Source: Arthrobacter subterraneus (GTDB lineage Bacteria; Actinomycetota; Actinomycetes; Actinomycetales; Micrococcaceae). Taken from it: DNA of 64,000 nucleotides. Below, in pieces: positions 9,397 through 50,339 of this stretch. Both the position numbers and the translations under genes were made by a program. The stretch is taken from contig NZ_FNDT01000004.1 of the NCBI RefSeq assembly GCF_900099735.1, positions 1-64,000 of the forward strand, given 5' to 3'. The notes beneath the pieces were generated by a model. That model was given only the letters and a program-made list of their open reading frames with translations, made no database searches and had not been told where the DNA came from. Each line of letters starts with the position of its first letter. Positions within the stretch are counted from its first letter, which is position 1.

Positions 9397-10848
<1,452 letters not shown>

Positions 10849-23003: not shown

Positions 23004-23537
23004 ATGAACAGCCGCGACCGACTGCGCTCCGCACTCAACTGGGTGAACGGGTCAACGCTGCTCGGGCTGGCACTCGCGAAGCTGGCGGGCTGTGAGATCC
23101 GGCCGGCGCCCCGCGGCCTTCTCTTTGCACACGGCTACTCCCCCGGTCTTCCGAAGGCTTCCGCGTTCACGGTGGGTAACGTTGTGCTGTTCCGTGCGGG
23201 GCATGCCGAGGTTGCCCGGCGACCCAGCCTGGTGGCGCACGAGGCACGGCACAGCGCCCAGTACGCCCTGTGTTTCGGCGTGCCGTTCTTCCCCGCCTAT
23301 TTCTTCTTCGCCGGGTTGTCCTGGCTCCTCACGGGCGACCCCGCTTCACGGAATCCCTTCGAGCGTGCCGCCGGGCTGCAGGCGGGCGGCTACACCGAAC
23401 GCCCGGTGCGGCCGGCGCTCCGCCGGGTGCTACGGCGCAGGGTCCTGCGACGCGTTAGTGTTCCGCGCCGCATTAGTGTTCCGCACCGGCCGGCACCCGG
23501 GCGTCAGCCCCGGCCACCGCGCTTGCCCGGGCAATGA
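23004..23537 (+). CDS. Conserved small protein with an HExxH-like motif, function unknown
   Basis: A 177-residue protein not assigned to a named family here. It has a central AHEARHSAQYA motif (HExxH, residues about 74-78, the zinc-peptidase pattern), followed by a hydrophobic FFPAYFFFAGLSWLL segment (about 88-103) and the block GDPASRNPFERAAG. The last 40 residues are Arg/Pro-rich low complexity and overlap the 3' end of pcp by 65 bp. The motif suggests a membrane-associated metalloprotein, but no activity can be claimed. The conserved part probably ends near residue 135; the tail may be extra. Confidence 0.7.
   Translation: MNSRDRLRSALNWVNGSTLLGLALAKLAGCEIRPAPRGLLFAHGYSPGLPKASAFTVGNVVLFRAGHAEVARRPSLVAHEARHSAQYALCFGVPFFPAYFFFAGLSWLLTGDPASRNPFERAAGLQAGGYTERPVRPALRRVLRRRVLRRVSVPRRISVPHRPAPGRQPRPPRLPGQ
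23455..23484. repeat. 12-bp direct repeat at overlapping gene ends
   Basis: TTAGTGTTCCGC occurs at 23455-23466 and again at 23473-23484, an 18-bp period. It spans the stop codon of pcp on the minus strand and the Arg/Pro-rich tail of the opposite gene, so a local duplication seems to have extended one or both ends. Confidence 0.75.
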
Positions 23538-24114: not shown

Positions 24115-24152
24115 TCCCCCAGATTAGCGGTGCGCCGTCACGGACAGTGAAT

Positions 24153-24168
24153 GGGAACACATGTTCTA
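24153..24168 (+). promoter_or_regulatory. SOS box (LexA site) before radical SAM gene
   Basis: GGGAACACATGTTCTA contains GAAC-ACAT-GTTC (24155-24166), the core of the actinobacterial LexA site TCGAAC-N4-GTTCGA. It overlaps the likely -10 region (TAATAA at 24167-24172) just ahead of the start at 24177, where LexA binding would block transcription. Confidence 0.75.
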
Positions 24169-24176
24169 ATAAATAC

Positions 24177-25229
24177 ATGCGGTGGGACGGACAAAAGATG
24201 ACGACGACGGCACGCACCCTGAGTGAACCGGAGCCGCTGGTACCCCTTGCCGGGCTGGTGCGGTCCGTCCAAACACCCGACTTCGCGGGGATCACATTCC
24301 ACGAGGTACTGGCCAAGTCGGCGCTCAACCGGGTTCCGAAAACCTCCGGGATGCCGTTCTCCTGGACGGTGAATCCGTACCGGGGATGCTCACACGCGTG
24401 CGTGTACTGCTTCGCCCGGAAGACGCACAGCTACCTGAACCTCGACACCGGGCTGGACTTCGATTCGCAGGTGGTCGTGAAGACCAACGTCGGTGACGTA
24501 CTCGGGCGTGAAGTGTCCAAGGCGTCCTGGGCCAGGGAACACGTGGCCATGGGCACCAACACCGACCCGTACCAGCGGGCCGAGGGCAGGTACCGGCTGA
24601 TGCCGGACATCATCCGCGCACTGGCTGACAGCGGAACACCGTTTTCCATCCTCACCAAGGGAACGCTTCTCAGCCGGGACATTCCGCTGCTCAAGCGGGC
24701 AGGCACGCAGGTCAGTGTCGGCATGGGCATCTCGCTTGCCGTCCTGGACCCGGATCTGGCACACGCGGTGGAACCCGGCACACCGACTCCCCGTGCACGC
24801 GTGGACCTCATTACGCGGTTGCGGAACGCCGGGTTGCCCTGCGGGGTGATGGCAATGCCCATCCTGCCGTGGCTGACTGACAGTGATGAAGCGCTGGATG
24901 CGCTTTTCGGTGCTCTCGCCGCCGCCGGGGCAACGGGCGTGTCCGCCGGAGCGCTGCACCTGCGGCCCGGTGCCCGTGAGTGGTACCTGGAGTGGCTCGC
25001 GAAGACGCACCCCACGCTCATTGGCCGCTACCGGCGTCTCTATCGCGGCGGCACGTACGCCTCGTCCGAGTACCGCGCGTGGCTGTCGGAGCGTGTGCGG
25101 GTGCACCGGCGTCGTCATGGGTTGTCCGCAGGCGCACGCTTCTTCAGGGAGGATGCGGGCGCTCCCGGAACCGCACGCCCGGATCAGCGGACCGTTCCGG
25201 AAGCGGTCACCGAGCCCACACTCTTTTAG
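24177..25229 (+). CDS. Radical SAM protein, Rv2578c/SplB-like
   Basis: A 350-residue radical SAM enzyme with the cluster motif CSHACVYC (Cys71, Cys75, Cys78) and the downstream VAMGTNTDPYQRAEG segment seen in the mycobacterial Rv2578c and distantly in spore photoproduct lyases. The reaction is unknown. The ATG at 24177 begins MRWDGQ, typical of the family, and lies 10 nt after a LexA box with no Shine-Dalgarno, so a DNA-damage-related role is inferred. Ends overlapping the convergent Nudix gene by 4 bp. Confidence 0.85.
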   Translation: MRWDGQKMTTTARTLSEPEPLVPLAGLVRSVQTPDFAGITFHEVLAKSALNRVPKTSGMPFSWTVNPYRGCSHACVYCFARKTHSYLNLDTGLDFDSQVVVKTNVGDVLGREVSKASWAREHVAMGTNTDPYQRAEGRYRLMPDIIRALADSGTPFSILTKGTLLSRDIPLLKRAGTQVSVGMGISLAVLDPDLAHAVEPGTPTPRARVDLITRLRNAGLPCGVMAMPILPWLTDSDEALDALFGALAAAGATGVSAGALHLRPGAREWYLEWLAKTHPTLIGRYRRLYRGGTYASSEYRAWLSERVRVHRRRHGLSAGARFFREDAGAPGTARPDQRTVPEAVTEPTLF

Positions 25230-25687
25230 TCCCTCGCCTCGGAGAGGTCCCCGACCGGGACGATCATCTCGAGCAGCGCATCCACGATCGGGCGGTCCGC
25301 GGGAATCCAGGGCAGCTCCGTCAGCTCGCCGGTGTCCTTGAGATCCACCCAGCGAAGTTCATCATGATCCTGCAGCGCGGCAGGCACGCCCGCGGTGATG
25401 ACGGCCAGCCAGACCCGCATGACGGCAGAATCATTGAGCGGCCAGCCCTCCGGGTCCGGCCCCTCAAGCTCAGCGCCTACCTGCACGTCCACGCCCAGTT
25501 CCTCGCGAACTTCACGCTGGAGCGCCTCGATGTCGTCCTCGTCGGGCTCCACCTTGCCGCCAGGAAACTCCCATTGCCCCGCGAACTGTTCGGGAGCGGT
25601 GCGCCGGGCAGCGAGCAGCCTGGCGGGTGCGGCGAGGGAATCCACAATGGCGGCGCCGACAATCTGTTTGCGCTGGGTATCGGTCAT
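25226..25687 (-). CDS. Nudix hydrolase, MutT-like
   Basis: A 153-residue (d)NTP pyrophosphohydrolase-type protein. The Nudix box runs from about residue 44 to 66, with GKVEPDE then REVREELG, preceded by QWEFPGG, the pattern of MutT/8-oxo-dGTP diphosphatases. The QWEFPGGK context favours sanitising oxidised nucleotides, but substrate cannot be fixed. It starts divergent from nothing nearby and follows the FG-GAP gene region; the 3' end overlaps the radical SAM stop. Confidence 0.88.
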   Translation of the reverse strand: MTDTQRKQIVGAAIVDSLAAPARLLAARRTAPEQFAGQWEFPGGKVEPDEDDIEALQREVREELGVDVQVGAELEGPDPEGWPLNDSAVMRVWLAVITAGVPAALQDHDELRWVDLKDTGELTELPWIPADRPIVDALLEMIVPVGDLSEARD

Positions 25688-38383: not shown

Positions 38384-38399
38384 TCGAAGCTGTGTTCTA
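38384..38399 (-). promoter_or_regulatory. Candidate SOS box before the LysM gene
   Basis: TCGAAGCTGTGTTCTA matches TCGAAC-N4-GTTCGA at 10 of 12 defined positions (G for C in the left half, T for G in the right). It lies about 45 nt upstream of the LysM start, nearer to it than to lexA. Confidence 0.55.
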
Positions 38400-38450
38400 T
38401 TCCTCTGTGTTTATTCTTAGCACCTGTGAACTAATATTGTCGAGACTCGC

Positions 38451-38491
38451 TCGAACAAATGTTTGAAAAGGCGTTCGCTGTCCCCTAGCGT
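38451..38491 (+). promoter_or_regulatory. lexA promoter with SOS box
   Basis: SOS box TCGAACAAATGTTTGA (38451-38466) overlaps the -35 TTGAAA (38463-38468), followed after 17 bp by TAGCGT (38486-38491). LexA binding would block RNA polymerase and give autorepression. The transcript start would be about 38498, over 100 nt before the translation start. Confidence 0.8.
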
Positions 38492-38634
38492 TGCTGGTGA
38501 GGGTGACGGTCCGGCCGCTTCGAAAACCAGCTCATCACCCACCACTGACAAAACAGGTTGGAGGGCCGGCTGGCCCGGGTCCGGCCCAGGGAAAGGGATG
38601 CATACTGGTGGCAGATCTCAGTGCGGCAGGGGAC

Positions 38635-39357
38635 ATGGCAGAGGCGTCGGCTTCCGGTGGAAAGCGGGGGCGCGGGCGTCCGCGTGGCCGGGCTATTCCC
38701 AAGGGGATGACGCCCCGGCAGAAGAAAATCCTCGAAACCATCCAGCGCAGTGTGGCAGCGCACGGCTATCCGCCGTCCATGCGTGAGATCGGTGACACGG
38801 TGGGACTGGCCAGCCTGTCTAGCGTGACGCACCAGCTCGCCCAGCTGGAGCGGATGGGTTACATCCGCCGCGATCCCAAGCGTCCGCGGGCAATGGAGAT
38901 CCTGCTTCCCCTCACCTTCGGTGAGGAGGCGCCGCGGGCCCTACCGTCCTCCGAGGAGGAGCCTGCTCCGGTGTCAGCGGTCGATGCGGCGATGGTTCCG
39001 CTCGTGGGCCGCATTGCGGCGGGCGGTCCTATCCTGGCGGATCAGGTCGTGGAGGATGTCATGCCGCTTCCGCGCCAGCTTGTCGGCCATGGGGACCTCT
39101 TCATGCTGCGGGTATCCGGTGACTCGATGATCGACGCAGCTATCTGCGACGGTGACTGGGTGGTGGTCCGCCAGCAGAGCACGGCGGAAAACGGCGATGT
39201 TGTGGCTGCCCTGCTTGACGACGAGGCCACCGTGAAGACATTGCGGCAGCGGGACGGCCACACCTGGCTCCTGCCGCAGAACACCAGTTATGAACCCATC
39301 CTCGGCGACCATGCCACGATCATGGGCAAGGTTGTATCGGTGATGCGCGCCCTCTGA
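38635..39357 (+). CDS. lexA: LexA repressor
   Basis: Master repressor of the SOS response, self-cleaving when RecA forms filaments. In the 240-residue form the winged helix-turn-helix covers about 25-90 ([17 protein letters not shown]), the scissile bond is Ala129-Gly130 in IAAGGPI, and the catalytic pair is Ser164 (SGDSM) and Lys201 (ATVKT). ATG 38635 has AGGGG upstream; GTG 38611 is an alternative adding eight residues. Both share the conserved core. Confidence 0.95.
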
Positions 39358-47905: not shown

Positions 47906-48970
47906 TTAGCGGCCCTCGCCGCCGACTGCCTTCAGTTTGGGACCACCCGGCTCCGGGGCGGCCGGCTCAACCGCGCCGCCGACGCCGAGCTTTTGCCGGA
48001 TCTTTTGCTCCAGCTCATCTGCCAGGTCCGGATTGTCGATCAGGAACTTCCGCGCGTTCTCCTTGCCCTGACCCAGTTGGTCTCCGTCATAGGTGAACCA
48101 GGCGCCGGATTTCTTCACGAGACCGTTTTCCACGCCGACATCGATCAACCCGCCCTCGCGGGAGATTCCGAAGCCATAGAGGATGTCGAATTCCGCCTGC
48201 TTGAAGGGCGGGGCCATCTTGTTCTTGACGATTTTGGCCCGTGTCCGGTTACCCACCGGGTTGGTGCCTTCCTTGAGCGTTTCAATGCGACGCACATCGA
48301 TGCGCACGGAAGCGTAGAACTTCAGTGCCTTACCGCCCGTGGTGGTTTCCGGGCTGCCGAAGAACACGCCGATCTTCTCGCGGAGCTGGTTGATGAAGAT
48401 GGCGGTTGTCTTGGTCTGGCTCAGGCGTCCGGTGATCTTTCGCAGGGCCTGGCTCATCAGCCGCGCCTGCAGACCGACGTGGCTGTCGCCCATTTCGCCC
48501 TCGATCTCGGCGCGCGGAACCAGCGCCGCCACGGAGTCGATCACCACGATGTCGATGGAACCGGAGCCCACCAGCATGTCCATGATCTCCAGGGCCTGCT
48601 CGCCCGTGTCCGGCTGCGAGACCAGCAGTGCGTCGGTATCCACCCCGAGCTTCTTGGCGTATTCCGGATCCAGCGCATGCTCAGCGTCGATGAACGCAGC
48701 GATGCCGCCGTTGCGCTGGGCGTTGGCGACCGCGTGCAGAGCCACCGTTGTTTTACCCGACGATTCCGGGCCATAGATTTCCACGACCCTGCCGCGCGGC
48801 AGTCCGCCGATCCCAAGGGCGGCGTCGAGCGCGATGGAACTGGTGGAAATGGTTTCGATGGGGGCGCGGACCTCATCACCCAGACGCATGACGGAGCCCT
48901 TGCCGTACTGCTTGTCTATCTGGGCCAGGGCGGCCTCGAGAGCCTTTTCGCGATCGGCTGGTACGGCCAT
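47906..48970 (-). CDS. recA: Recombinase RecA
   Basis: DNA strand-exchange ATPase and LexA co-protease. The 354-residue protein has Walker [10 protein letters not shown] near residue 67, Walker [10 protein letters not shown], and the signature [11 protein letters not shown] near 215; no intein interrupts it, unlike M. tuberculosis RecA. The start has GAGGTGA upstream. A LexA box lies about 180 nt upstream, so it should be induced by DNA damage. Confidence 0.98.
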
Positions 48971-49132: not shown

Positions 49133-49162
49133 AGCATAACCCCGGTCCGAACACATATTCGA
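49133..49162 (-). promoter_or_regulatory. recA promoter region with SOS box
   Basis: On the minus strand TCGAATATGTGTTCGG (49147-49162) matches TCGAAC-N4-GTTCGA at 10 of 12 defined positions; TATGCT (49133-49138) just downstream is the likely -10. The leader to the recA ATG is about 160 nt. Confidence 0.75.
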
Positions 49163-49965: not shown

Positions 49966-49991
49966 TACGCACACCGGGGTGCGGTGGAACA

Positions 49992-50339
49992 TCAGTTCTT
50001 GGTAGCTGCGAGTCCCCTGCTGAAACCGCCGGTGAAATCCTCCGGCAGTTCGCCGCCGAACTGCTGGGCGAATTCCTGCGGGACGGTGTCGGGAACAGCG
50101 ACTCCCTCTGCTTCTGCAAGGCGGTCACTGACCTCCCGCAGCATCAGGGACAACGGCACATCCAGTGCGGAGCAGATTGAGGACAGCAGTTCCGAAGACG
50201 CTTCCTTCTGCCCCCGCTCCACCTCGCTGAGGTAGCCGAGGGAGACCCGGGCGCTGTGCGACACTTCCCTGAGTGTACGGCCCTGGCGCTGGCGGACGTC
50301 CCGCAGGACGTCTCCGATCTCGTGGCGTAAAACGACCAT
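49992..50339 (-). CDS. clgR: ClgR-type helix-turn-helix regulator
   Basis: A 115-residue XRE-family activator. The core [17 protein letters not shown] and [20 protein letters not shown] (about 4-55) is nearly identical in pattern to ClgR, which activates clp protease and recX/stress genes in actinobacteria. ATG 50339 has GAAGGAG upstream. Typically ClgR is itself a Clp substrate; the C-terminal LAATKN would be compatible with that but is not proof. Confidence 0.9.

Follow-up and report, generated by a model that had tools for sequence, protein, structure and literature searches.

A LexA box, a radical SAM core and a putative sliding-clamp-binding tail in an Rv2578c-family gene of Arthrobacter subterraneus

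The radical SAM gene and its LexA box

The window, by which we mean the whole 64,000-nucleotide stretch of Arthrobacter subterraneus DNA that was analysed, carries a gene for a radical SAM protein of 350 residues preceded by a LexA (SOS) box (Table 1). The protein scores 516.5 bits against the Rv2578c-family model NF038135 (cut-off 430), with residues 1–316 aligned to positions 1–316 of the 317-position profile, confirming the family to which the initial annotation had assigned it from the letters alone. The closest named relative that we found is a protein of Arthrobacter sp. Soil782 (84% identity). Because the MRW N-terminus aligns with profile position 1, the alignment supports the ATG at 24177 as the start; position 24153, given earlier as the beginning of the feature, marks where the 16-mer box, not the gene, begins. 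The palindromic core of the box, the 12-mer GAACACATGTTC (24155–24166), does lie in front of the gene as claimed and ends 10 nt 5' of the ATG.

Table 1. Coordinates of the features at the radical SAM locus and of the compared genes and sites in the window
Feature	Position	Strand	Evidence or remark
−35-like hexamer CGGACA	24141..24146	+	18 nt before the −10-like hexamer; 4/6 bases match TTGACA
LexA (SOS) box GGGAACACATGTTCTA, 16-mer	24153..24168	+	same place in orthologues
−10-like hexamer TCTAAT	24165..24170	+	overlaps right half of LexA box
Rv2578c-family radical SAM protein gene, 350 aa, ATG start	24177..25229	+	NF038135, PF04055
Codons of CSHACVYC (C71, C75, C78), CX3CX2C [4Fe-4S]/SAM motif	24387..24410	+	Cys invariant in 63/63
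Codons of GTNTDPYQ (126–133)	24552..24575	+	T127 at the position of the catalytic Cys of spore photoproduct lyase (SPL; SC[TY][TS]D)
C-terminal tail, residues 321–350, low-confidence gap-rich linker ending in motif	25137..25226	+	pLDDT, alignment A2
Codons of EPTLF (346–350), degenerate putative beta-clamp-binding motif	25212..25226	+	A2 columns, tail classes, published consensus
Convergent Nudix hydrolase gene; probably not part of the system	25226..25687	−	PF00293, 64 bits
Two LexA-box-like sites before lexA	38384..38466	+	comparison
ORF containing lexA	38491..39357	+	TIGR00498
recA	47906..48970	−	TIGR02012
LexA-box-like site before recA	49147..49162	+	CCGAACACATATTCGA, 176 nt before recA

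The initial annotation had also reported matching boxes at lexA and recA. Both genes are present in the window and both are preceded by such sites (for lexA, TCGAACAAATGTTTGA at 38451–38466 and TCGAAGCTGTGTTCTA at 38384–38399), but these match nearly rather than fully, with one or more half-site mismatches in each. Two more perfect GAAC-N4-GTTC sites lie at 49985–50000 and 9815–9830, the latter also fitting a tighter pattern, GAACNNRTGTTCKA. Across the window the 12-mer pattern occurs three times where 0.86 would be expected, and 5 of 100 shuffles have at least as many; the 16-mer has three mismatches to the mycobacterial consensus. Taken alone, the single site is weak evidence, little above chance, and proves little. 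Genome-wide, we counted 93 GAAC-N4-GTTC sites versus 43 for the reversed pattern, and eight distinct sites of the tighter pattern versus none for its reversal. Three of these eight fall within ORFs with matches to clpX, homoserine dehydrogenase and DUF5719, so the pattern by itself is no proof of an operator, and we gave up predicting a regulon from the box alone. Elsewhere in the same genome, a tight LexA box lies about 700–800 nt upstream of a gene for an ImuB-like protein (L379, C17:124500-129000), a layout expected for an imuA-imuB cassette; the ORF between the box and the ImuB-like gene had no Pfam match.

The site rises above chance because it is conserved in orthologues. Within the same phylum we collected 179 genomic loci with an NF038135 match (79 returned by searches and 100 hand-picked from match lists, together a part of all matches from these searches), and removed the window copy (L020) and eight distant relatives scoring below 180 bits, leaving 170 orthologues. 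Start codons were set by the MRW-type N-terminus in 145 of the 179, by the nearest start codon in 33 and by implication in one, which leaves some box positions uncertain. Absence of the box in orthologues was among the outcomes that the initial annotation had named as refuting its claim, and the claim came through: GAAC-N4-GTTC with at most one mismatch was found within 120 nt upstream in 159/170 (shuffle mean 7.65), and the perfect form in 99/170 (shuffle mean 0.32). Local controls at the same stringency gave 2/170 inside the gene, 9/169 downstream and 10/170 between −240 and −120, with no perfect site in any of the three. The position is also constant, the box starting at −22/−23 in 101 of the 159 box-bearing orthologues, and a named sample of 80 loci, which overlaps that of 170, has the box in 70 (43 perfect). 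Among the 11 orthologues that lack it (L033, L038, L042, L043, L057, L065, L091, L102, L161, L167 and L172), L038, L042, L043, L057 and L065 show, by eye, a site at that place with two mismatches (for example GAAGATGTATTC), and L033 and L161 show GTTC-N4-GTTC.

We then aligned 173 upstream regions, the window's own included, all picked because a box with no more than one mismatch lay between −26 and −19; this choice forces conservation on the half-site columns, but not on the −35 columns or those at box+13 to +15. TTGA[CA] starts, in exactly this form, 13–14 nt before the box in 59/173 regions, A at box+13 and T at box+15 each reach 91%, and the right half-site merges into a −10-like T-C-[GT]-A-A-T, with the ATG some 22 nt after the box start. 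The window promoter has the same layout but a weak −35. A sigma-70 consensus promoter scan found no site here; the scan requires A at −10 position 2, which TCTAAT lacks. Since the box is in register with the −35 and −10 elements, LexA would occupy the spacer and the −10, and the transcription start predicted from this layout lies at or next to the ATG, so that the mRNA is probably leaderless. From its conservation in orthologues, we regard the site as almost certainly a LexA operator in the promoter of the window gene.

SOS regulation of such genes is not new. M. tuberculosis Rv2578c and P. aeruginosa PA0069 belong to LexA regulons, and splB/COG1533 genes have already been published as SOS-controlled in alpha- and beta-Proteobacteria and Bacteroidetes; our literature search for PA0069 together with LexA found nothing. 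In S. venezuelae, LexA ChIP-seq gave a peak at the radical SAM gene vnz_31145, which mitomycin C (MMC) induced 19.97-fold (PMC9380542), and SplB-like proteins have been tied to ImuB-C by gene neighbourhood (PMC3765255). With the Rv2578c family, perhaps including vnz_31145, the window gene shares the full-length match and the LexA box upstream; its core shows no difference, whereas its tail reads EPTLF where most relatives have Q. Given the published SOS control, the regulatory claim amounts to a further member of a known regulon. The initial annotation was thus right in what it observed and right in its regulatory reading, which is mostly known, leaving it partly supported as a whole; its description of the product as an enzyme without an assigned substrate was borne out.

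The neighbour that it called MutT-like is a Nudix gene, but scores 52.6 bits against the MutT equivalog model, under the cut-off of 97.9. A similar convergent Nudix gene lies downstream in 33/154 loci with about 1.5 kb of flank, all 33 coming from the family-level search or from named Arthrobacter or Sinomonas; the link is therefore lineage-bound, the Nudix gene is no general partner of the radical SAM gene, and we rejected Nudix coupling as a general explanation. An all-against-all comparison of flanking ORFs for a conserved neighbour was confounded by spurious GC-rich frames that joined clusters. A short protein encoded at 23004–23537 matches eCIS_core weakly (24 bits), and a similar stretch lies upstream in 22/154 loci.

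The C-terminal tail and its distribution

The most informative feature of the family, missed by the initial annotation, is its C-terminal motif, and this is what is new. In the predicted model of the window protein, the last three ten-residue blocks have pLDDT values of 53, 48 and 51, and the columns just before the motif are rich in gaps in the alignment A2 (63 sequences); the tail (residues 321–350) may thus be flexible, low pLDDT being only a sign of flexibility. The last five columns of A2 hold Q in 50 sequences, then L 34/P 16/A 6, T 35/S 10/A 8, L in all 63, and F 36/L 21/I 2, giving the majority motif Q-[LPA]-[TSA]-L-[FL]. In PMC13254535, the clamp-binding consensus is Q-phi-x-[L/M]-[F/L] or Q-phi-x-[L/M]-x-[F/L], with RecB (QVEMEF) as an example, and PMC9690074 describes C-terminal QL(S/D)LF as a clamp motif. 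The family shares with such bacterial beta-clamp-binding proteins a short Q-based terminal motif behind a low-confidence linker.

We therefore classified the tails of 245 unique proteins, which comprise both samples minus identical and incomplete proteins (one protein without a complete end was excluded from the 170, leaving 169 tails). Q-x-x-[LIM]-[hydrophobic] stands at the end, or at most five residues from it, in 171/245, and the hexapeptide form adds seven. By class, 90 are canonical Q[LM]x[LM]-type pentapeptides, 81 other Q..[LIM] forms and 7 hexapeptides (178/245 Q-based together), followed by 16 of an E..L form, 37 with another ..LF-type end and 14 with none of these, several of the last reading QMSLDL, QLSLDL, QLALPGF or QLTFM. 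The strict published consensus is matched by 87/245 tails versus a mean of 1.3 and a maximum of 5 for shuffled tails, and a related pattern gave 113 matches exactly five residues from the end versus 8 beyond 15. Among 45 ordinary actinobacterial proteins of a Tsukamurella plasmid, the Q form occurred in none and a form allowing E in one. A positive control failed: two Y-family polymerases and an ImuB-like protein encoded in the genome that the window comes from were without the motif by the pattern used.

In the family-level sample (the loci of the family-level search plus L018), the last two residues are L in 65/68 and F in 66/68, Q is present in 38/68, and no position from −6 to −25 has one residue in more than 26/68; the strict consensus is matched by 7/69, a relaxed form by 41/69 and an [LM]F end by 68/69. 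The window's own EPTLF fails the strict consensus, with E for Q and P for the aliphatic residue. Loss of Q weakens clamp affinity and is not an absolute bar (PMC13254535). On these sequence comparisons, the family quite probably ends in a sliding-clamp-binding motif that would tether it to the clamp. Our literature search for a clamp tether in such radical SAM proteins found no report, and we know of no radical SAM enzyme among the described clamp clients.

The same type of motif recurs in the sister family of PA0069, which shares a related core; against its model NF033668 the window protein scores 208.9 bits, under the cut-off of 360, and ten plasmid-borne PA0069 proteins all score above it. 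These ten end in QLSLL, QLSLF, QLDLF (with four residues behind it), QGELF, QLRLL, QLRLF, QLTMF, QLSLL, QLRLF and QYSLF, with Q in 10/10, and the three actinobacterial PA0069 proteins (L173–L175) in QPSLF or QPSLL with one residue behind, so that a clamp-type motif stands at or near the end in 13/13 proteins read. LexA boxes of the host's own kind precede 7/10 of the plasmid-borne PA0069 genes read. GTTC-N7-GTTC, the alpha-proteobacterial LexA motif, lies upstream of 6/8 alpha-proteobacterial PA0069 genes, which hold 7/8 of its occurrences in 38,104 bases, and for the Aeromonas gene a CTG-N10-CAG site stands 12 nt upstream of a start codon; with the patterns used, no LexA box was found for L347 (Legionella), L349 and L355, and the start codon is uncertain for L345 and L351.

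Eight distant radical SAM relatives on plasmids had the motif in 0/8 by eye. Of the actinobacterial relatives scoring below 180 bits, L177 ends in QASLF and L179 in QEKLF, L171 and L176 are without it, and the tail of L178 was not read; with L177 and L179 carrying the motif, its origin may predate the two families or its spread extend beyond them. From 80 loci fetched from viral contigs, ten tails were read, nine of them complete: one has a clear motif (L265, an enzyme relative with 34% identity that ends in QLDLFDLAS), L266 reads QLNFL and seven have none. Phage records gave eight matches, all below 30% identity and none spanning 80% of the query, and PADLOC gave no match at E ≤ 0.01; a defence role was set aside on these grounds. 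Some plasmid neighbourhoods are worth recording. A distant relative on a Staphylococcus saprophyticus plasmid (L358) lies in an alkylation-repair-like cluster, between a 2OG-Fe(II) oxygenase gene and DNA glycosylase and Ada-domain genes, and on a Runella plasmid (L359) a UvrD-helicase-domain gene stands directly 3' of the radical SAM gene. The 148-kb record of Tsukamurella plasmid 21 (L353/L365) holds an Rv2578c gene together with hisS, aspS, alaS and ruvX, which suggests that it may be a piece of chromosome.

A hydrophobic C-terminus on an SOS-induced enzyme could also serve as a degron or dock some other protein, for instance in Clp-type turnover after SOS. The constancy of the last two residues and the frequent loss of Q in the family-level sample fit such a role, but the motif is not always terminal, other residues following it in QMSLDLG..., QLSLDLD..., QLALDLTG, QQGTLFDPSATAT and QPSLFD; its penta- and hexapeptide variants fit both consensus forms given in PMC13254535, and it recurs in the PA0069 family. 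We consider this explanation unlikely, although it fares best among the alternatives, and favor clamp binding as the role of the motif.

The radical SAM core and its comparison with SPL

C71, C75 and C78 are the only invariant cysteines in A2. In 30 of 33 orthologues longer than 450 residues, among them L033, L056, L104 and L253, an intein of about 143–349 residues lies between Y77 and C78, ending HN before CFAR (L157 was judged by the intein start only); L063, L066 and L069 are long with no intein at that site. As the intein splits the [4Fe-4S] motif, splicing would have to precede formation of the active site in these proteins.

The nearest solved fold is that of SPL. Foldseek with the predicted model returned SPL first (E 1.4e-6, TM-score 0.53–0.56), and VIA-align gave it a Z of 16.2 over 264 aligned residues at an rmsd of 3.8, the next family being lipoyl synthase at Z 13.9; the VIA-align list held nothing better than SPL, which excludes nothing. 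The profile-profile probability with SPL is 95.6, and a family-profile search of the PDB aligned a stretch EPGT...RL...AG...P common to both, a relationship reached through the family profile, since a PDB sequence search with the window protein alone returned designed-protein noise only. In AlphaFold3 models, a Streptomyces member differs from SPL by more than 4 Å RMSD (PMC12924846).

MiaB, SkfB and NifB, which modify RNA, peptide and metal cluster, are also among the fold matches. The substrate could accordingly be RNA, a peptide or a free nucleotide, with LexA control because the product is needed after damage, and the Nudix neighbour would suit a role in the nucleotide pool. However, that gene accompanies the radical SAM gene in a minority of loci, as given above, and the clamp motif and SOS control together would point to DNA as the site of action. 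We judge this alternative improbable, and less likely than a degron; action on DNA is the reading we carry forward.

The initial annotation had called the protein SplB-like, a label that holds for the fold and the CX3CX2C motif and not for the catalytic cysteine (C141 in Bacillus, C140 in solved mutants). At this position, C is found in 5/5 SPL proteins, whereas T or S is found in 63/63 Rv2578c-type sequences, including Thr in the window protein; in the PA0069 family it is T in 5/10 and A in 3/10, and two sequences outside the pattern read GTATD by eye. The register between SPL and Rv2578c rests on the shared TD(P), and hhalign shifted it by a few residues, so that the comparison falls short of structural proof for the exchange of Cys for Thr. 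The window protein also has no match to TIGR04070, the SPL equivalog model, at E ≤ 0.001, whereas Bacillus SplB does match, and the C-terminal motif is present in 0/5 SPL proteins, whose last residues read IEYFT, VLYFT or ILYWT. Many hosts of these genes form no endospores. A true SPL-like enzyme that reverses a photoproduct alone on UV-damaged DNA, as several records annotate and as the nearest fold and profile, CX3CX2C and the shared EPGT...RL...AG...P would suggest, is for these reasons the least likely of the alternatives.

A proposed role at the sliding clamp

We propose that the product of the window gene is a radical SAM enzyme, induced in the SOS response, which may act on damaged DNA where the beta sliding clamp is loaded, a reading that the sequence comparisons make rather probable. 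LexA bound to the operator between the −35 and −10 elements would block the promoter of a seemingly leaderless mRNA, an arrangement supported by its conservation, and removal of LexA upon DNA damage would switch the gene on. The presumably flexible tail of about 30 residues would terminate in a clamp-binding peptide through which the enzyme docks on DnaN; the sequences suggest this for the family and, by extension, for the window copy. Translesion polymerases and mismatch-repair proteins dock on DnaN likewise. The core would make a 5'-deoxyadenosyl radical, by which a lesion could be opened or reversed, or an adduct trimmed, at stalled or gapped replication sites. With Thr in place of the catalytic Cys of SPL, the chemistry cannot simply copy that of SPL, and a different lesion or radical quench is expected.

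More broadly, in the Actinomycetota, Alpha- and Gammaproteobacteria read, the Rv2578c and PA0069 families could form a widespread class of SOS-induced, clamp-riding radical SAM enzymes that would carry out direct repair or adduct trimming at stalled forks or gaps, alongside translesion polymerases, on a lesion other than the spore photoproduct; we see the chances for and against this extension as evenly balanced. If the clamp reading holds, the 'SplB' label would be corrected, since the key Cys of SPL is missing. The family is listed in the SOS regulons of several phyla without an assigned substrate, and the clamp motif gives it a likely place, at sites of replication and repair. If this is true, radical SAM chemistry would take its place among the clamp clients beside polymerases, mismatch-repair proteins and RecB, and clamp-loaded damaged DNA would be where to look for its lesion.
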